Assembly: GCA_020851035.1 (NCBI GenBank)
Contig: JADZDM010000010.1
Coordinates: 1 to 64,000, forward strand
Reading direction: 5' to 3'
Length of the DNA stretch: 64,000 bases
Origin: Gemmatimonadaceae bacterium
GTDB lineage: Bacteria; Gemmatimonadota; Gemmatimonadetes; Gemmatimonadales; Gemmatimonadaceae
Shown one piece after another: positions 1-14,147 of this stretch. The notes beneath the pieces were generated by a model that saw only the letters and a list, made by a program, of their open reading frames with translations, was not told the DNA's origin and ran no database searches. Position numbers and translations under genes: made by a program. Each line of letters begins with the position of its first letter. The stretch's first letter is position 1.

Positions 1-161
1 GAACTCGAGATCTCCGTCCCCTTGAACTCGAGATCTCCGTCCCCTTGAACTCGAGATCTCCGTCCCCTTGAACTCGAGATCTCCGTCCCCTTGAACTCGA
101 GATCTCCGTCCCCTTGAACTCGAGATCCCCGTCCCCTTGAACTCGAGATCCCCGTCCCCTT
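1..161. repeat. Seven tandem copies of a 23-bp unit
   Basis: Seven head-to-tail 23-bp units start at 1, 24, 47, 70, 93, 116 and 139; the array may continue left of the window. The unit begins GAACTCGAGATCT and ends CCGTCCCCTT. Units 6 and 7 share one T-to-C change, so they probably arose by local duplication. There are no spacers. The array ends about 30 bp past the stop of the SRPBCC gene, and a palindrome (TCGAACCGGTTCGA, 172-185) lies between them. Function unknown. Confidence 0.95.
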
Positions 162-5670: not shown

Positions 5671-5783
5671 TCACCGAATTCGGTGACAGTGCACCCATTC
5701 CCCGGAATCCGGTGACAGAAATCCGGTGACAACAGGAATCCGGTGACAGTGCACTCATTCCCAGGAATCCGGTGACAGTGCAC
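5671..5783. repeat. GTGCACTGTCACC repeat cluster 1
   Basis: Three full copies of GGTGACAGTGCAC (5682, 5742, 5771) and two shorter GGTGACA copies, all in the same orientation and each preceded by GAATCC or similar. The cluster opens with a 16-bp palindrome, TCACCGAATTCGGTGA (5671-5686). It lies between divergent genes, unlike clusters 2 and 3. The rest of the gap up to 5980 shows nothing else I can name. Confidence 0.9.
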
Positions 5784-5980
5784 TGATTTCGCCGCCGAGC
5801 CGGCGGTGGCGGCTCCGGGGTGCCGCCGGGGGCAGTGATTCCCCCTGATGTAGGGGATTTCCCTCTATGGCGCGCGGAATGCCCCGCACCCACCGTGGAT
5901 GAGGCACCTGCCACTCCCGCCATCCTGCCGGTTCCCGGTCGGCACGTGCCCAGGCGGATCTCCCCATCCCCGGAGGCCAG

Positions 5981-7246
5981 ATGCAGGCCCTGCCAAGTAC
6001 GGTCGCCCCGGACGTCTTCACGGGCCTCGTCGCCGGTGAGCGCGACGCCCTGCGCCGGTTGTTCGACAGCTTCGCGCCATCCCTCGCCGCCGCAGTCGAC
6101 GAGAACGTCGGCGCCGACTCGGCCACGTCGCACATCATCGACGCGCTCTTCCTCGAGGCGTGGCACGAGCGCGCCACGTTCACGTCACCGGATGCGCTGC
6201 ACGACTGGCTGGTCCGCGAGTCGCAGGCGCTGTCGGCGCGCGAACTCGCCCGCCGCGCGCGGCTCCGCCGTTTCGAGGAGCGCGAGCATATCCACCGCGA
6301 GCCGACGGCGGCCCCGCATGCGCCGTTCGACGTGGCGGCCGGCTGGACGCGTGTGACGGCCCAGCTCGACCACACCGGTGACGATGCCACGCGGGCTGCC
6401 GAGGCGCGACTCGAGGCGTCGAAGCACGGTGCGGCGGAGCACATCGCGCATGTCGGCGAGGGGATCCCACGCAAGGTCCTCGTCGGCGGTGCAATCGGCT
6501 TCGTGGCACTCGCGTCGGCGATCTTCTGGGGCATGGACCGCGCCGGGATGGACGTGCGGCTGAAGCAGGCCATTGCCAGCAAGGATGCGCATGCCATCAC
6601 CACCGGCTCCGGGCAGCGAGCAACCGTGAAGCTCGATGACGGGACGCAGGTGACCATGGCGGCAGACGACAGCATCACGGTGGCAGCGGGATTCAATCGC
6701 GAGTTGCGGGCCGTCTCGGTCACGGGCGCGGCCCGGTTCACCGTCGCCCCCAACCCCAAGCTGCCGTTCCACGCCTTCGCCGGTCGCATGCACGTGGTCG
6801 CGACGGGCACCACCTTCACCGTGAGCGCGTGGAAGGACGAGCCGGTGTCGGTGGCGGTGCAGGAGGGGAGCGTGACGGTGACGGTCGGCGACCAGACGCG
6901 CGAGGTGGCCGCCGGCGCCGGTCTCCAGCTGTCGGCCGACAGCGTGCTGACCGACGCCACACCGGAGCAGGTGGCGGAGACGGCGCAGTGGGCGGATGGT
7001 CGCCTGGTGATCGCGAACCGCACGCTCAAGGCCTCGTTGCCGGTGTTCCGGCGCTGGTACCTCATGGACCTGCGTCCGGAGGTGAAGCTGCTCGACCGAC
7101 CGGTCTCGATCTCGGTGCCGGTGGACAAGGGCGACAGCGCGATCGTGGCGCTGCAGCAGTCGGCGAACGTGGAGCGGATCTGGGTGAACGGGCAGACGGT
7201 GATCGTGGACGCCCCGCCGAAGGGGGCGTCGGCGACGAAGCGCTGA
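5981..7246 (+). CDS. Sigma-like domain fused to membrane-anchored FecR domain
   Basis: Residues about 10-100 resemble region 2 of an ECF sigma factor (L-R-R-L-F-D-S-F, then D-A-L-F-L-E-A-W-H-E-R). There is no region 4 helix-turn-helix. A single membrane segment follows at about 165-185, then a FecR domain at about 207-302 (G-Q-R-A-T-V-K-L-D-D-G-T-x-V and V-x-A-T-G-T-T-F-T-V), then a C-terminal extension of some 110 residues. FecR proteins are normally separate anti-sigma factors that relay outer-membrane signals. Here the cytoplasmic end looks like a decayed or repurposed sigma module. No TonB receptor is nearby. The start is the ATG that begins the sigma-like homology. Confidence 0.8.
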   Translation: MQALPSTVAPDVFTGLVAGERDALRRLFDSFAPSLAAAVDENVGADSATSHIIDALFLEAWHERATFTSPDALHDWLVRESQALSARELARRARLRRFEEREHIHREPTAAPHAPFDVAAGWTRVTAQLDHTGDDATRAAEARLEASKHGAAEHIAHVGEGIPRKVLVGGAIGFVALASAIFWGMDRAGMDVRLKQAIASKDAHAITTGSGQRATVKLDDGTQVTMAADDSITVAAGFNRELRAVSVTGAARFTVAPNPKLPFHAFAGRMHVVATGTTFTVSAWKDEPVSVAVQEGSVTVTVGDQTREVAAGAGLQLSADSVLTDATPEQVAETAQWADGRLVIANRTLKASLPVFRRWYLMDLRPEVKLLDRPVSISVPVDKGDSAIVALQQSANVERIWVNGQTVIVDAPPKGASATKR

Positions 7247-7287
7247 ACCGTCCGGATCGGTAACGGGACGGCAGTGTCGGGAAAACC

Positions 7288-7444
7288 GGTGACAGTGCAT
7301 GAATTGGACAGAAATCGGCTAAACCGGGGAAAAACCGGTGGGAAAAACCGGTGACAGTGCACGAATTCCCATCTGGCAATTCGTGCACTGTCACCGATTT
7401 CTGTCTGTCACCGATTTCTGTCTGGCAAGTCGAGCACTGTCACC
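7288..7444. repeat. GTGCACTGTCACC repeat cluster 2 with perfect hairpin
   Basis: Two GGTGACAGTGCA copies (7288, 7350) face two copies in the opposite orientation (7383, 7432; the last has one mismatch), with partial copies between. The inner pair makes a perfect 18-bp stem (7350-7367 with 7378-7395) and a 10-nt loop, flanked by A-run and T-run sequence (AAAAACC and GATTT). It sits between convergent genes (stop codons at 7246 and 7481), so it is well placed to act as a two-way terminator. Confidence 0.9.
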
Positions 7445-7480
7445 GATTTCGCGCCGCCGACTTCGCGCTCACCGATCGCG

Positions 7481-9568
7481 CTACGGCTGCACCGTCGCGC
7501 GGGTGGTGCCGAGGGTGTGCTGCGCAATCCAGTCGTACTCGCGCTTCATGCGGTCGACCTGGTGGTAGTACTCCGACAGCCCGTGCCCCTCACGCGGGTA
7601 GAACACCAGCTCCACCGCCTTGCCGCGGTCCTTGAGGGCGCGGTAGAACTCCATCGGCTGGCCGATCGGCACGCGCTCATCGTTTCCGCCGTGCAGGATC
7701 AGCAGCGGCGTGGTGATGCGGTCGCTGTAGCTGATGGCCGAGCGCTCGAGGTACTTGCGAACGCTCGCGTTGACGATCGAGCCATCGTACTGCGGGTCGC
7801 CGAAGAAGGTGTTGATGTAGCCGGGGATGTCGGTGGTGCCGGCCATCGAGAGCAGTGACGGCAGCCCCGCACCCATCATCGCCGCCTTGAAGCGGCCGGT
7901 CTGCGACACGACCCACGACGTCATGTAGCCGCCGTAGCTCCAGCCCTCGAACGCCAGCTTCTCGGGATCGGCGATCCCGAGCCGCACCACGGCATCGGTG
8001 CCGGCCATGATGTCGCGATAGTCTCCCCCGCCCCAGTCGCCGGTGTTGGCGCGCATCCACCATTCGCCATAGCCGGTGGAGCCGCGCGGGTTGGGGTACA
8101 GCACCGCCCAGCCACGTGCGGCCCAGGTCTGGCCGGGTGCGCCGGTGCTGCCCTTGAAGCCGTTGGTCCACGCCGCCGTGGGTCCACCGTGCGCCGAGAC
8201 CACCATTGGCACGCGCGCACCCTCGCGGTACCCGACCGGCAGCAGCAGGATGCCCTCGACCGCGCGACCGTCACTCGACTTCCAGCCGATCACGCGCGTC
8301 TCCCCCAGCGCGCGATCCGACAGCCAGGCGTTCGTCGTCGTGATCCGCTTCGGCTCCGGCAGCGACGCGTCCTGCACGAAGACTTCGGCCGGCCACATCG
8401 GCGAGTCCAGCACGAACGCCATCTTCGCGCCATCGCGGCTGGCGACGGCACCCTGTACCATGAGGTCCTTCGTCATGGTGGTGTAGCGCCGGCTGGCGAG
8501 CGTGTAGCTGTAGAGCGTGTTGTAGACGCGATCGCTGGCCGTGAACCAGAGCGACGCGCCGTCGGCCGACCAGCGCGGCTGGCCCGGGCTCACGTCGAAC
8601 GTCGGCACCGCGAGGTCGGTGATCGCCTTCGTGGCGACATCGTATGTGACGAGGTGGTCGTTGCGCAGCGTTCGGGCGGCGATGCCGTCCTTGTGGGCCG
8701 CGAACTCCTTTCGCAGCATCGTGAACGCCAGCGTGCGGCCATCGGGCGAGAACTGCGGCGTGCTCTGCACCTCGCTGGTGGTGGTGAGGCGGTCGATCCG
8801 CTGCGACGCGATCTCCACCATGTAAGCATCGCGACGCTCGTCGCGGATCATCGGGGTGGGCGAGGCGTCGAACGCGAGGCGGGTGCCGTCAGGCGACCAC
8901 GACGGCGCACCACGCACCGTGAAGGCCCCGCTGGTGACCTTCGCCGCCGCCCCTGACGCCACCGTCACGACCCAGAGGTGGTTGAGGCGGAAGTCGGCCT
9001 CGAACACCTTCGCATCGTCGCGGCGACGGGTGCGCGCCTCCTGCTCGCGCGTCAGCGTGTCGGGGGTGACGACGGCGATCCGGCTGGCATCGGGAGACCA
9101 GGCGAACGCCACCACCCCGTCACGCAGTGTGGTGAGCTGCCGCGCCTCGCCGCCGTCGGCGGGCAGCAGCCAGACCTGCGGCTTCGGCGCGTCGTCGCCG
9201 GTGCCGGTCCCGCGCGCCGACACGAAGGCGATCGTGCGGCCGTCCGGTGACCACGCCGGCTGCGATTCGCCGCGCTCGCTGAAGGTCAGCTGCCGGGCGT
9301 CACCGCCGGCGAACGGCACGATCCAGACGTGCGAGCGGCGGTCGTGCTTGTCGCCGAGCGCGGTGTCGGCCTTGGCGTTCGGATGCTCCCAGCCGGTCAC
9401 CGTATAGAGGATGCGGTCACCGGTTGGCGCGATGGCCACGCCGCCGACGGCCTTCATCCGGAGCAGGTCGGCGTCGCTCAGGCCGCGAGGCTGCTGCGCG
9501 AGCAGGGGATGGGCCGCGAGCGTGACGGCCACGAGGAGGATGGCGCGGGAGCGGCGGAACGTCGTCAT
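7481..9568 (-). CDS. Exported S9-family prolyl oligopeptidase-like peptidase
   Basis: A 695-residue protein with a signal peptide, an N-terminal seven-bladed propeller (repeated W-S-P-D-G/A motifs as in TolB-like blades) and a C-terminal alpha/beta hydrolase domain. The catalytic triad is visible: Ser in G-W-S-Y-G-G-Y, Asp in H-G-G-N-D-E-R-V-P and His in R-E-G-H-G-L. This is the acylaminoacyl-peptidase/dipeptidyl-peptidase branch, which cleaves short peptides, here outside the cytoplasm. The ATG at 9568 is chosen because it opens the signal peptide; upstream in-frame codons show no homology. Monocistronic. Confidence 0.93.
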   Translation of the reverse strand: MTTFRRSRAILLVAVTLAAHPLLAQQPRGLSDADLLRMKAVGGVAIAPTGDRILYTVTGWEHPNAKADTALGDKHDRRSHVWIVPFAGGDARQLTFSERGESQPAWSPDGRTIAFVSARGTGTGDDAPKPQVWLLPADGGEARQLTTLRDGVVAFAWSPDASRIAVVTPDTLTREQEARTRRRDDAKVFEADFRLNHLWVVTVASGAAAKVTSGAFTVRGAPSWSPDGTRLAFDASPTPMIRDERRDAYMVEIASQRIDRLTTTSEVQSTPQFSPDGRTLAFTMLRKEFAAHKDGIAARTLRNDHLVTYDVATKAITDLAVPTFDVSPGQPRWSADGASLWFTASDRVYNTLYSYTLASRRYTTMTKDLMVQGAVASRDGAKMAFVLDSPMWPAEVFVQDASLPEPKRITTTNAWLSDRALGETRVIGWKSSDGRAVEGILLLPVGYREGARVPMVVSAHGGPTAAWTNGFKGSTGAPGQTWAARGWAVLYPNPRGSTGYGEWWMRANTGDWGGGDYRDIMAGTDAVVRLGIADPEKLAFEGWSYGGYMTSWVVSQTGRFKAAMMGAGLPSLLSMAGTTDIPGYINTFFGDPQYDGSIVNASVRKYLERSAISYSDRITTPLLILHGGNDERVPIGQPMEFYRALKDRGKAVELVFYPREGHGLSEYYHQVDRMKREYDWIAQHTLGTTRATVQP

Positions 9569-9783
9569 GGGTGTGACGGTCGGGGGTGGGCGTGGCTGGC
9601 GGGTCCCGGGTATCCCGAATGGTACGCGCGGTGCTGCCGGGAGTGTTGGCAGCTGGTGCGTCGGCCGATATTCCACGCCGCCCGGGGCCGCCGCAAGGCC
9701 CGCGGACGGCCTCACCGAGTCGTACCGGAACGGGTGCTCCCGGGGCCGGTCGACGCAGTCACGTGCAGCAGACAGGGGGAGCC

Positions 9784-10281
9784 ATGGCAGCGCGCAAGGC
9801 ACCAGTGAAGCGGGCGGCGACGAAGGGGGCCACCGCAAGGAAGGTCAGCACGAGCAAGGTCGCCGCACCAGCGACCCCGAGCCTGCTCAAGGGCGGCAAC
9901 CCGCAGGTGGCGAAGGCACACGGTGATGCGCCGGTGCAGGCGTACATCGCCGCCATGCCGGGCTGGAAGCGCGACATCGGTGCGCAGCTCGACGCGCTGG
10001 TGACGCGCACGGTGCCGACGGTGGTGAAGGCCGTGAAGTGGAACTCGCCATTCTACGGTGTCGCAGGCAAGGGGTGGTTCCTCAGCTTTCACGTGTTCAC
10101 GCGCTACGTGAAGGTGACCTTCTTCAAGGGCACGTCGCTCACGCCGCCACCGGGTGGGGGCGCGGCGAAGGAGGCGCGCTGGATCGACATCCACGAGGAT
10201 GATTTCGACGAGAAGCAACTCACCCGCTGGATCCGGCAGGCGTCGAAGGTCCCCGGATGGGGTGGCAGTCCGGCGGATTGA
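9784..10281 (+). CDS. DUF1801 protein with Lys/Ala-rich N-terminal tail
   Basis: A 165-residue protein. The first ~35 residues are rich in Lys, Arg, Ala and Thr, like a histone H1-type or HU-like tail. The rest is a DUF1801 (YdhG-like) domain with V-V-K-A-V-K-W-N-S-P-F-Y-G and F-H-V-F-T-R-Y-V-K-V-T-F-F-K-G-T. The family's function is not established. A strong AGGGGGA Shine-Dalgarno sits 3 bp before the ATG. The next gene starts at the base after this stop codon, so the two are co-transcribed. Confidence 0.88.
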   Translation: MAARKAPVKRAATKGATARKVSTSKVAAPATPSLLKGGNPQVAKAHGDAPVQAYIAAMPGWKRDIGAQLDALVTRTVPTVVKAVKWNSPFYGVAGKGWFLSFHVFTRYVKVTFFKGTSLTPPPGGGAAKEARWIDIHEDDFDEKQLTRWIRQASKVPGWGGSPAD

Positions 10282-11088
10282 GTGAGCCCCACTGCGCGGG
10301 GACTGCGCCTCGTCACCTGGAACTGCTGCCGCGGGCCGCTCGCCGCCAAGCTGGCGGCGCTCGACGCGCTGCACGCCGACATCGCGGTGTTGCAGGAATG
10401 TCCGAAGCCGGCAAGACAATCGGACCAGTTCCGCTGGCTTGGTGACACGCCGCGCCAGGGCGTCGCAGTCATTGCGCGCGGCGAGTATCGTCTCCGGCGG
10501 CTGCCTGCACCTGACGGCGCCCCGCGGTACGCATTGCCGGTGTCGATCCGGGGGCCGGAGCAGTTCTCGCTGCTCGCGATCTGGGCGATGAACGACCGCC
10601 CGCTCCGTTATGTCCGCGCCGTCGTCCGCACGGTGGAGCTGCACCGCGCGCGCCTGGCGCGTGGCGCGATGTTCGTGCTCGGTGACTTCAACTCGAACAC
10701 CGTCTGGGACCGCGAGCATCCCACCACCACCAACCACAGTGCGCTGGTGGGCCAGCTGGCCGCGCTCGGCCTGCACAGTTGCTACCACCGGGCCACTGGC
10801 GAGTCCCACGGTGCCGAGTCCACACCGACCTTTCACCTGTACCGGCACGCCTCGCGCCCCTACCACCTCGACTACTGCTTCGCGCCATCGTCATGGCTGT
10901 CGCGACTCTCCGCCGTCACGATCGGCGCGCATGAGCGGTGGATGCGCCACAGCGATCACCGGCCGCTGATCATGGACTTCACACCGCCGGCTGTCGACGT
11001 CACCGCGTCGCGGCAACCCCGGCGAGGTCCCGACGATCCGCCGCCAGCTCGGCCAGCAGCGCCACATGCACGTCGAGCGCGTCGATGA
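10282..11088 (+). CDS. Endonuclease/exonuclease/phosphatase (EEP) family protein
   Basis: The 268-residue protein shows EEP-fold motifs: T-W-N-C near the N-terminus, L-Q-E-C (metal-binding Glu), G-D-F-N-S-N, and the closing S-D-H-R-P-L catalytic motif. Such enzymes cut phosphodiesters or phosphomonoesters with Mg2+; the substrate is unknown. The GTG start directly follows the TGA of the DUF1801 gene. The core fold ends around residue 240. The remaining Arg/Pro-rich tail is simply the antisense of the racemase gene, which overlaps this one by 89 bp tail to tail. Confidence 0.88.
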   Translation: MSPTARGLRLVTWNCCRGPLAAKLAALDALHADIAVLQECPKPARQSDQFRWLGDTPRQGVAVIARGEYRLRRLPAPDGAPRYALPVSIRGPEQFSLLAIWAMNDRPLRYVRAVVRTVELHRARLARGAMFVLGDFNSNTVWDREHPTTTNHSALVGQLAALGLHSCYHRATGESHGAESTPTFHLYRHASRPYHLDYCFAPSSWLSRLSAVTIGAHERWMRHSDHRPLIMDFTPPAVDVTASRQPRRGPDDPPPARPAAPHARRARR

Positions 11089-11701
11089 CGGGATAGCCTG
11101 GCGCGTACCCGTCGAATGCCAGCCCGAGGTCCGTCCCCGCCAGCACGATCGCCTCGGCGCCCTGCTCACGCACCATGCGGGTGCCGGCATCGAACATCAT
11201 CTGGCGCTGCGCCTCGGTGCACACACCGCTCACCGCCACGTCCAGGTAGGCCTGGCCGAGAATCTCGATGTCGTCGTCGCTGGCCACGGCCTCGGTCTGG
11301 TGCAGCTGGCCGTAGAGTCGGGTGCGCATGACGACGCGCGTGCCGAGGAGACCGACGCGACGGATGCCGGCGGCGGCGAAGTGGGCGTCGAGAGGTGCCA
11401 CGGCAGAGACGAGCGGCAACGGGGACATGCGCACCGTCTCGTCGAAGCAGAAGTGCCCGCCGAGTGAGGTGATGGCGGCGCAGTCGGCACCGGCCGCCTG
11501 CAGTCGCCCGATGAGCCCCGCGTAGACTGCGGCCTGTTCCTCGCGCTTGTCGGCGAGGTTGTTGCGGATCAGGACGTTCACGTCGGCCTGCACGATGGTG
11601 AGTTCCAGCGGCGCCTGCAGTTCGCGCATGCGGGCGCAGAGGCGCTGATAGTACACGATGGTGGCGGCGGGGCCGATGCCGCCGATCAGGCCGATGTGCA
11701 T
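11000..11701 (-). CDS. Aspartate/glutamate racemase-like protein, atypical active site
   Basis: A 233-residue Asp/Glu/hydantoin racemase-fold protein opening with I-G-L-I-G-G-I-G-P-A-A-T. The family normally uses two cysteines (C-N-T and G-C-T-E). Here the first position reads A-I-T-S-L-G-G-H, a Thr/Ser-type variant. The second reads L-A-G-T-D-L, with Gly where the catalytic Cys should be. A two-base racemase needs that residue, so the protein may be a lyase/isomerase variant or inactive. Its 3' end overlaps the EEP gene. No partner gene is evident. Confidence 0.8.
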   Translation of the reverse strand: MHIGLIGGIGPAATIVYYQRLCARMRELQAPLELTIVQADVNVLIRNNLADKREEQAAVYAGLIGRLQAAGADCAAITSLGGHFCFDETVRMSPLPLVSAVAPLDAHFAAAGIRRVGLLGTRVVMRTRLYGQLHQTEAVASDDDIEILGQAYLDVAVSGVCTEAQRQMMFDAGTRMVREQGAEAIVLAGTDLGLAFDGYAPGYPVIDALDVHVALLAELAADRRDLAGVAATR

Positions 11702-11973
11702 TGCGTGTCTCGAAGCGCCGGTGTCGGGCCGGCATCGTCAACAGCGTTCGCGCGGAAGGCGCGGGCGAGCGGAGCGATCAGGAAGATATCCGCGGCATGA
11801 GGAAGCGCTTGACAGCGCCACGCACCGCGGTGATGGTATGGGGGTGGCGCCGTCGGAGCGCCCCCGGTCCGCGGGCAGGGAGTGTCCCATCCGACGCACG
11901 ACGACGCGCACGAGACAACACACCTCTTTTCGGGCTCACGACGCGGACACGAGCCACCACGAAAGGAGGCAGT

Positions 11974-13905
11974 GTGTCCGAGAACCGCACCAGTCGTCCC
12001 GTCGCCGCGAACGCCGGCGACATCCGTTCGCTCCCGCCGCAGCCGAGCCTCGAGTTCGAGAAGAAGCAGGCGAGGCGCCTGCTCCGCCAGTTGCAGGCAG
12101 GCGATCCCCAGGCGCTCGCCCGGGCACAGGCACGCCATCCGTCGTTTCCGGCTGGCACGCCGGATCGCGCGACGCTGTCCGAAGCGCAGCTCATCATCGC
12201 GCGGGAGTACGGCTTCAGCAGCTGGCCGCGATTCAGCCGCTACCTGTCGACACTGGAGCGCGGGATCAGCGCCAACCGGTCGCTCAACCTCGGTGATGCG
12301 CAATCGTACGAGCGCGAGGCGCAGCGACTCCTGATGATGCACAAGCATGGATGGGCGTGGACCGCGCGCCAGCTGGCGGCGTACGTGCCTCGATTCGTGG
12401 GACAGTCGATCGCGGAGGTGCGGGCGGCGGAGGTCACGCTCGATGATGCGAAGGTGGTCGTCGTGCGAATGCGGCATTGCACGAACTGGGAGCAGTTGTT
12501 GGCACACGCCGCGGCGATGCGGCCACGCGTGGAACAGGACCCGTGGGAGCGACAGGAGACGCCCCGAATGCGGGCCTGCCGCGCCATCAGGGCTCACGAC
12601 CTGCCTGGCCTGCAGGCACTGGTGCGCGCGCACCCGGAGCTGCTGCAGCCCGAAGCCGAGCTGCAACGCGTGGGCTGGTCGCTGATGGCGGAAGCGATCG
12701 AGCTCGAGCCGACCGATGGCCGGGTGGACGCGCGCGGCATTGCGGACTGGCTTGCAGCGCAAGGGCTCGACGTGCAGGCGAGCCTGAACCGCGCCCTCGT
12801 GCGTGAGCGTCGCCCGTGGACCGTCGCCGCCGTGCGCCGGCTGCTCGACCGGGGCGCCGACCCGTCCTGGATCGCGCCGACCGGGCTCACGGTGCTGGAG
12901 CATGCGATCGTGCAGTACTGGAACGGGCAGGCGGTGGACCTCATCGCGCAGCGGGTGCGTTCGCGCCGCGCGTTCTGGATTGCGGCCGGGCTGGGGGACG
13001 TGCCCGGTGTCCGCCGGTTCTTCGGCACGGATGGCACGCTCACGGCTGATGCGTACCGCGACCGGCCGCCTCTGGAGCTGATGAGCGTCGCACTGGCGGT
13101 GCCCACGCTGCCGGAACCCGACGACGTGGAGGTGATGGCGGAGGCAGCACTCGTCGCCGCGATGAATGGTCGCGTGGCGGTGCTCGAACTGCTGCTCGAC
13201 ATGGGCTATCCGGTCGATCACCGCTTCTGGCTGGACCAGACGCTCGTGTACTTCGCGATCCATCACGGCATGGACACGATCGTGGAGGTGCTCGTGCGGC
13301 GCGGTGCGGATCTCGACGTGTCCGTCGGCGGCCAGATGCCGACCGCGCGACAACTGGCCGCGCAGATGCTGGACTCCGTGCCACACGGGCGCTCGCCACG
13401 CTTCCGGCGGATCGCGCGACTGTGTGGTGTCGTCGGGCAGCGACCGCCTGAAGCGCCTCTCGTCGATGAGTACCCGGTGACGCGCGCGCTCGAGGCGGCG
13501 GGTCTCGACGCGCAGCGCATGGGCAGTGCAACAGTCGGCAGCGAGCATCTCATGGTGGGCCTCATCTGCTGGGGCCAGGAGTTCATGCCGATGGTGCTCG
13601 CGAACGGTGGCGTGGATGTGTTGCGCCTTCGGGCCCACCTGGGGGATCGCATCCGGCCCGACGAGGACGCAACCGCAGCTGCGACCCCGCCGCGGAGCGA
13701 CGAGGTCACGCGCACAGTGGAGCGCGCCCACGCCATCGCGCGCGAACGGGACCACAACGCCGTCAGCATGAGTCACCTGGCTACCGCGCTCCTCGAGGAC
13801 GACGGCGGCGCCGCGGCGCAGTTGCTGCTCGCCTTCGGCGGCTCACTCGAGCGGCTGCGCGCCGAGTTCGCGCCGGTGCCCGAGTACGGGGCGCAGCCGG
13901 ACTGA
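11974..13905 (+). CDS. Ankyrin-type protein with C-terminal Clp-N repeats
   Basis: The 643-residue protein has three parts. Residues ~15-90 form a module also seen in the ankyrin protein at 16661 (R-R-L-L-R-x-L-Q-A-G-D-P-x-A ... L-S-E-A-Q-L-I-I-A-R-E-Y-G-F-S-S-W-P-R). A long middle holds divergent ankyrin repeats (V-R-R-L-L-D-R-G-A-D-P; L-E-L-L-L-D-M-G-Y-P-V). Residues ~500-635 hold two Clp-N (ClpA/B/C amino-terminal) repeats (V-G-S-E-H-L-M-V-G-L; V-S-M-S-H-L-A-T-A-L-L-E). No AAA+ domain is present. The GTG start at 11974 is supported by a full GGAGG. Clp-N domains recognise adaptors or substrates, so this looks like an adaptor or decoy. Confidence 0.88.
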   Translation: MSENRTSRPVAANAGDIRSLPPQPSLEFEKKQARRLLRQLQAGDPQALARAQARHPSFPAGTPDRATLSEAQLIIAREYGFSSWPRFSRYLSTLERGISANRSLNLGDAQSYEREAQRLLMMHKHGWAWTARQLAAYVPRFVGQSIAEVRAAEVTLDDAKVVVVRMRHCTNWEQLLAHAAAMRPRVEQDPWERQETPRMRACRAIRAHDLPGLQALVRAHPELLQPEAELQRVGWSLMAEAIELEPTDGRVDARGIADWLAAQGLDVQASLNRALVRERRPWTVAAVRRLLDRGADPSWIAPTGLTVLEHAIVQYWNGQAVDLIAQRVRSRRAFWIAAGLGDVPGVRRFFGTDGTLTADAYRDRPPLELMSVALAVPTLPEPDDVEVMAEAALVAAMNGRVAVLELLLDMGYPVDHRFWLDQTLVYFAIHHGMDTIVEVLVRRGADLDVSVGGQMPTARQLAAQMLDSVPHGRSPRFRRIARLCGVVGQRPPEAPLVDEYPVTRALEAAGLDAQRMGSATVGSEHLMVGLICWGQEFMPMVLANGGVDVLRLRAHLGDRIRPDEDATAAATPPRSDEVTRTVERAHAIARERDHNAVSMSHLATALLEDDGGAAAQLLLAFGGSLERLRAEFAPVPEYGAQPD

Positions 13906-13927
13906 GCCGCAGGAATCCGGCGGACGG

Positions 13928-14147
13928 AATCCGGTGACAGTGCACACCATTGACGGCAATTCGTGCACTGTCACCGGATTTCGCGGAATCGTGCACTGTC
14001 ACCGGATTTCTGACGGCAATTCGTGCACTGTCACCGGATTTCGCGGATTTCTGACAGCAATTCGTGCACTGTCACCGGACTTCGCGCGTGCACTGTCACC
14101 GATTTCCCGAATTGTGCACTGTCACCGAATTCGGGTGTCACCGAATT
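13928..14147. repeat. GTGCACTGTCACC repeat cluster 3 with perfect hairpin
   Basis: One left-facing copy (in 13928-13945) and six right-facing copies of GTGCACTGTCACC start at 13963, 13991, 14023, 14064, 14088 and 14114. Most right-facing copies are followed by a G-A-T-T-T or similar tail and preceded by GGCAATTC. The left copy pairs with the first right copy in a perfect 18-bp stem (13928-13945 with 13963-13980, loop 17 nt). The distances between copies (24-41 bp) are too short and irregular for CRISPR. Convergent genes flank it, and its end supplies the last codons and TGA stop of the D-aminoacylase-like gene. Confidence 0.92.

Follow-up and report, generated by a model that had tools for sequence, protein, structure and literature searches.

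Dispersed 25-bp repeats in a Gemmatimonadaceae genome as probable copies of the terminal inverted repeat of a Y1 HuH transposase

The clustered short repeats described here are best read as copies, dispersed through the genome, of the terminal inverted repeat (TIR) that borders a Y1 HuH transposase gene (RAYT/TIRYT class) on contig C2, a reading to which we give a probability of about 0.85. The best explanation of their pattern involves no separate host function. They thus form an unusually rich and informative set of a known class of bacterial mobile repeats. The earlier note on this DNA had listed a repeat mobilised by an unseen transposase among several possible roles, and this role is the one favoured, since a transposase gene bordered by copies of this repeat was found.

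In the window (the whole stretch of 64,000 nucleotides analysed), GTGCACTGTCACC occurs 12 times exactly and twice with one mismatch. These copies are split over three clusters, three in 5682-5783, four in 7288-7444 and seven in 13933-14126, in agreement with the at least 14 full or near-full copies initially reported. With up to two mismatches, the window holds 19 matches against 3.6 expected, a number reached in 0 of 100 shuffles. The features on which the analysis relies are the following.

5671-5783, minus strand: cluster 1, partial units and three full ones that share a single orientation (GGTGACAGTGCAC on the plus strand)
5584(-)/5981(+): divergent gene gap of cluster 1
7288-7444: cluster 2, four units in the order - - + +
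7246(+)/7481(-): convergent gene gap of cluster 2
7349-7396: perfect inverted dimer within cluster 2, with 19-bp arms at 7349-7367 and 7378-7396
13928-14147: cluster 3, seven full units, one - followed by six +, with partial units
13905(+)/14138(-): convergent gene gap of cluster 3
13928-13980: perfect inverted dimer within cluster 3, with 18-bp arms at 13928-13945 and 13963-13980
9-115, plus strand: array of five tandem copies of a sister repeat, GATCTCCGTCCCCTT, with a 23-bp period
C2:173084-173743, minus strand: gene for a Y1 HuH tyrosine transposase, flanked by GTGCACTGTCACC-family repeats in inverted arrangement

Two of the clusters thus lie between convergent genes, as first noted, and the perfect 18-bp stem claimed for each of them is found as such in cluster 3, that of cluster 2 being one base pair longer. 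Folded as single-stranded DNA, both dimers reach about -25 kcal/mol, with z-scores of -10.5 (cluster 2) and -9.3 (cluster 3). The repeats are not a CRISPR array because their spacing is irregular, as already recognized from the sequence, and their mixed orientation also rules this out.

Genome-wide, 146 exact copies of GTGCACTGTCACC occur in about 40 groups, many of them therefore outside the window, whereas about 0.2 would be expected by chance from base composition and the reversed control pattern gives 0. Most copies were mapped via the following base, and 28 stretches around copies were examined. The aligned copies replace the 13-bp core first proposed as the conserved unit by a 25-bp unit, AATKMGTGCACTGTCACCGRATTTC, beyond which the flanks are barely conserved. 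The copies show a strong polarity. Neighbours within 160 bp are arranged as '--' in 54 cases, '++' in 51, '-+' in 17 and '+-' in only 2, and the '-+' pairs are spaced by 27-36 bp start to start in 14 of 17 cases. Both orientations are present in 16 of the 43 clusters, and all '-' copies precede all '+' copies in 14 of these 16. The GGTGAC end therefore nearly always points outward; the same outward polarity is seen around the C2 transposase gene and among the copies of the larger sister family, GATCTCCGTCCCCTT. Steps within arrays are mostly of 22-33 bp.

Inverted dimers fold very stably; the hairpin of a lone 25-bp unit is not convincing, in which the family departs from known REP substrates. 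One variant of the unit folds at -3 kcal/mol and another does not, the terminal AATTCG/CGAATT being able to pair in one variant. A hairpin within one unit is poorly supported, no covariation between the sides of the unit being seen in 145 copies. A known RNA family was discarded, no Rfam family matching the repeats at the gathering threshold. Neither the GTGCACTGTCACC core nor the sister motifs were found as repeats in the papers searched, the only text match being in a paper that, by its title, deals with tumour biology.

The placement of the copies relative to genes was studied in the stretches around copies and in the window, the baseline being taken from the same sequence and the genes being called by a simple home-made gene finder trained on the stretches around copies. 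Among gaps of at least 30 bp, convergent ones account for 13 of the 26 with copies versus 14 of the 75 without (Fisher p = 0.004), so that the enrichment at convergent gaps, for which the earlier note had suggested a test, is found. Only 25 of 167 copies (0-1 mismatch) lie wholly within a predicted gene, though 83% of the bases are coding. The initial statement that copies are found only in gene gaps hence holds for the window clusters and fails genome-wide, even if copies are far rarer inside genes than expected. The enrichment at convergent gaps and the very stable stems of the dimers are what could be expected of host transcription elements, i.e., bidirectional terminators or protectors of mRNA 3' ends at convergent gene ends, for which the link with a transposase would be incidental. 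We consider this improbable, as the clusters lack T-tract terminators and Rfam matches, copies also occur in 6 divergent gaps and in ten genes, both orientations are present in a minority of clusters, and sister repeats border the transposase gene in distant phyla (see below). Rho-independent termination in particular was rejected, T-tracts being missing at the clusters, and termination, one of the roles first suggested, is not supported as the primary one. The one terminator-like site found, at 10221-10242, lies outside the clusters.

The TIR reading rests first on the surroundings of the C2 gene. Two copies of the repeat lie just beyond its 3' end; upstream, the 320 bp or so that precede its start hold three full copies, in inverted arrangement relative to the former. 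The encoded protein matches Pfam Y1_Tnp above cut-off; against NCBIfam REP_Tyr_transpos it reaches an E-value of 2e-19, yet its 70 bits are under the cut-off of 80. A search of PDB sequences with the single C2 protein found no transposase, 4er8 (the E. coli TnpA-REP) being matched only by a profile search. The structural model of the C2 protein (pLDDT 90.6) aligns with 4er8 at Z 15.0, with an rmsd of 2.7 over 152 residues; behind 4er8 come IS200-type transposases at Z 7 to 9.5, the next best match being at Z 9.5. The catalytic residues H60, H62 and Y119 are kept in the C2 protein and are invariant in 83 of 83 sequences. As to the helix-turn-helix-like C-terminal domain of TIRYT subclass 2.1, the model shows C-terminal helices, and a Pfam HTH match is absent.

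The genome carries three Y1_Tnp genes, on C2, C21 and C25. No GTGCACTGTCACC repeat was found near the C21 and C25 genes, apart from one two-mismatch chance match. The C21 gene lies among GACTCTGTCCCC repeats, whose longer form GACTCTGTCCCCTTT has 13 copies in the genome, and the C25 gene among GATCTCCGTCCCC repeats, whose longer form GATCTCCGTCCCCTT has 55; the sister repeats of both genes are of GGGGAC type. The array at positions 9-115 of the window thus belongs to the repeat family of the C25 transposase. Some GATCTCCGTCCCCTT copies adjoin copies of the GTGCACTGTCACC family (C2:55629 and 55861).

The same layout is widespread among relatives of the C2 gene. Among the 78 relatives with enough flanking sequence, which span many phyla, 58 carry exact inverted repeats of 12 nt or more on the two sides of the gene, versus 5 of 78 in a control with swapped flanks. 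A GG[G/T]GAC[A/G]-type motif is present in 51 of the 58 flanking repeats, most of them with the body CGG[G/T]GACA, and 56 anchored repeats (55 from relatives and that of C2) share roughly AATT-n-CGG[G/T]GACA[C/G]nnTAC-TAATT. Repeat distance is correlated with protein distance (r 0.34, n 56, 0 of 5000 permutations), a correlation that shared ancestry alone may produce. In three relatives from other groups (L087, L095 and L119), the gene adjoins long arrays of sister units, some full and some partial, which have grown like those described here. Recombination or slippage alone, with a transposase gene that picked up copies like any other locus, could be suggested by the array steps of 22-33 bp, which look like tandem duplication. 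This process is hardly credible as the whole explanation: it accounts neither for the dispersal to roughly 40 places nor for the inverted arrangement around the C2 gene, and it does not explain why the other two genes have sister repeats or why 58 of 78 relatives share this layout.

The closest matches of the C2 protein in the genome collection (40-56% identity) belong to Alphaproteobacteria and many other groups, and a similar protein is found, weakly, in only 3 of 40 kin genomes. From these comparisons, acquisition of the C2 transposase from outside is plausible. Within the same genus, genome G001 has 8 copies of the repeat, some of them dimeric, and no transposase gene was detected in this 90% complete genome; either copies can therefore persist after loss of the gene, or the gene escaped detection. 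One locus of G001 (L180, contig C110, 1575-1594) holds a variant, GAATTACGGTGACAGTGTAC, within an overlapping perfect palindrome, which constitutes a genus-level variant of the repeat. G002, from the same genus, has one copy, together with a broken remnant of the transposase gene that shows 59% identity over 73 residues. This remnant (L147, contig C182, 37963-38181) has lost the HuH motif and lies beside a decayed unit, AATTCGGTGACTGTGCGC.

No direct sign of mobility, in the form of an empty site with clean ends, was found. The repeat cluster is absent after the G002 copy of the S9 peptidase gene of the window. The genes orthologous to those of the window are present in G002, and no clean empty site of the window clusters is seen there because gene order differs. 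Among 20 further G002 contigs sampled, one is syntenic and repeat-free, and no orthologue of the repeat-bearing genes was found.

In the other genera of the family, the repeat is absent or found as single copies near chance level, so that it is not a conserved host system. This is one argument against sites bound by a host protein, chromosome-organising or other, to which a strongly conserved and clustered sequence of 13-25 bp might otherwise point; given also the copies within genes and the link to a mobile-type gene, we hold such sites to be very improbable.

If the repeats are TIR copies, as we favour, their history could be as follows. We infer that the repeat is mobile and that the 25-bp unit, in single-stranded form, is what the C2 enzyme recognises, cleaves and rejoins. 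Inverted pairs would spread in trans to new sites, a dimer being pictured as the two ends of the element minus the gene, like a REPIN or a MITE. Arrays would then lengthen outward as units are duplicated in tandem on the spot, the usual step being 22-33 bp. That most surviving copies lie in gaps, and especially in convergent ones, would be due to these being the sites where a copy is least harmful. To our knowledge, no enzyme of the TIRYT group has been shown to act on its own repeat. With three transposases and three separate repeat families in one genome, as well as 56 anchored protein-repeat pairs, the recognition code is directly testable.

TIRYTs and TIRtrons were named by Di Nocera et al. 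2013 (PMC3733652), who described multi-copy TIR families in dimers and clusters and found the motif GGGGWSAS in some, not all, TIRs without requiring it. According to Quentin et al. 2018 (PMC6006769), most TIRYTs fall in subclass 2.1, where no REP-like sequences were found; these authors equate this subclass with RAYT group 1 of Bertels et al. 2017 and left TIRYT-type repeats open (“further analyses are necessary”). The GTGCACTGTCACC family matches the TIRYT/TIRtron class, subclass 2.1: a Y1 HuH gene with a catalytic tyrosine, RAYT-like, between inverted repeats without a GTAG tag, a multi-copy repeat family in dimers and clusters, and several genes per genome, each with its own repeat. The body of the repeat is close to GGGGWSAS, GGTGACAG fitting 7 of 8 positions (the third base is T), and a full fit is seen in GGGGACAG, one of the two sister families. 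What differs from the TIRYT/TIRtron reports are the 146 exact copies, the defined 25-bp unit, the fixed polarity and the in-frame copies in genes.

Like REPINs, defined by Bertels and Rainey 2011 (PMC3116915), the repeats occur as inverted doublets able to form hairpins, which are scattered for the most part in intergenic DNA; the genome encodes a RAYT with a cluster next to it, and the fixed polarity of the copies is also that of REPIN dimers. However, their units are not GTAG REPs and are closer to each other (27-36 bp start to start), and the doublets sit inside longer one-way arrays. The fold and catalytic residues of the enzyme are those of the canonical REP/BIME system with TnpA-REP (4er8; PMC8266576), whereas the 25-bp consensus lacks the GTAG tag and the single unit lacks a supported hairpin. 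The preference for convergent gaps is usual for REP-type repeats (PMC3733652). The in-frame copies resemble intragenic REP/RPE insertions (PMC3733652, citing Rickettsia RPEs), i.e., short in-frame repeats in protein genes, but in at least two of the present genes no length has been gained compared with homologues.

After inspection, 21 of the 25 copies within genes were retained; they lie in frame in ten predicted genes, three reading frames being used, which was unexpected. The units mostly encode Gly-Asp-Ser-Ala, otherwise Ala-Leu-Ser-Pro or Val-Thr-Val-His.

Genes with in-frame units: L038, L041, L043, L046, L051, L052, L053, L054, L055, L061

Pfam domains are found in 8 of the 10 proteins and in neither L051 nor L055, whose status as genes is less certain. 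Inside the units, third-position G+C ranges over 0.33-0.62, versus 0.85-0.95 in the rest of the same genes, and this low value is the mark of pasted sequence.

Comparison with homologues gives a mixed picture of how these copies arose. In L061, a beta-propeller protein, the protein alignment shows the unit ungapped relative to two same-genus orthologues (82-83% identical), and a one-residue gap at the unit relative to a third orthologue from the family. In L046, an ABC ATPase, the unit reads ALSP where two distant homologues read ALPP or DLPP, ungapped. The unit of L054, a pyruvate:ferredoxin oxidoreductase, lies in an ungapped block relative to one distant homologue, which gives weak support. 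By contrast, L041 (FdhD) is 10 residues longer than three relatives around its two units, and the E. coli-type FdhD 4pde is also gapped there. These alignments hint that the unit could have spread, at least partly, by overwriting without adding length rather than by insertion, as L061, L046 and, weakly, L054 would favour and the length gain of L041 would not; we regard this as a rather unlikely, tentative proposal. A single-stranded unit would anneal to an imperfect match, e.g., GCGCTGCCGCCG (Ala-Leu-Pro-Pro), and be copied in, in a way resembling oligonucleotide recombineering. The mix of length-neutral and length-gaining copies, in this small sample, is not simply covered by known accounts. 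Overwriting, if it holds, would mean that a repeat can spread by an unusual route, and it is the only possibly new mechanism here.

The predicted gene L055 (2031-2978), without Pfam match, contains seven in-frame GDSAP-type units and may be a repeat array turned coding sequence.
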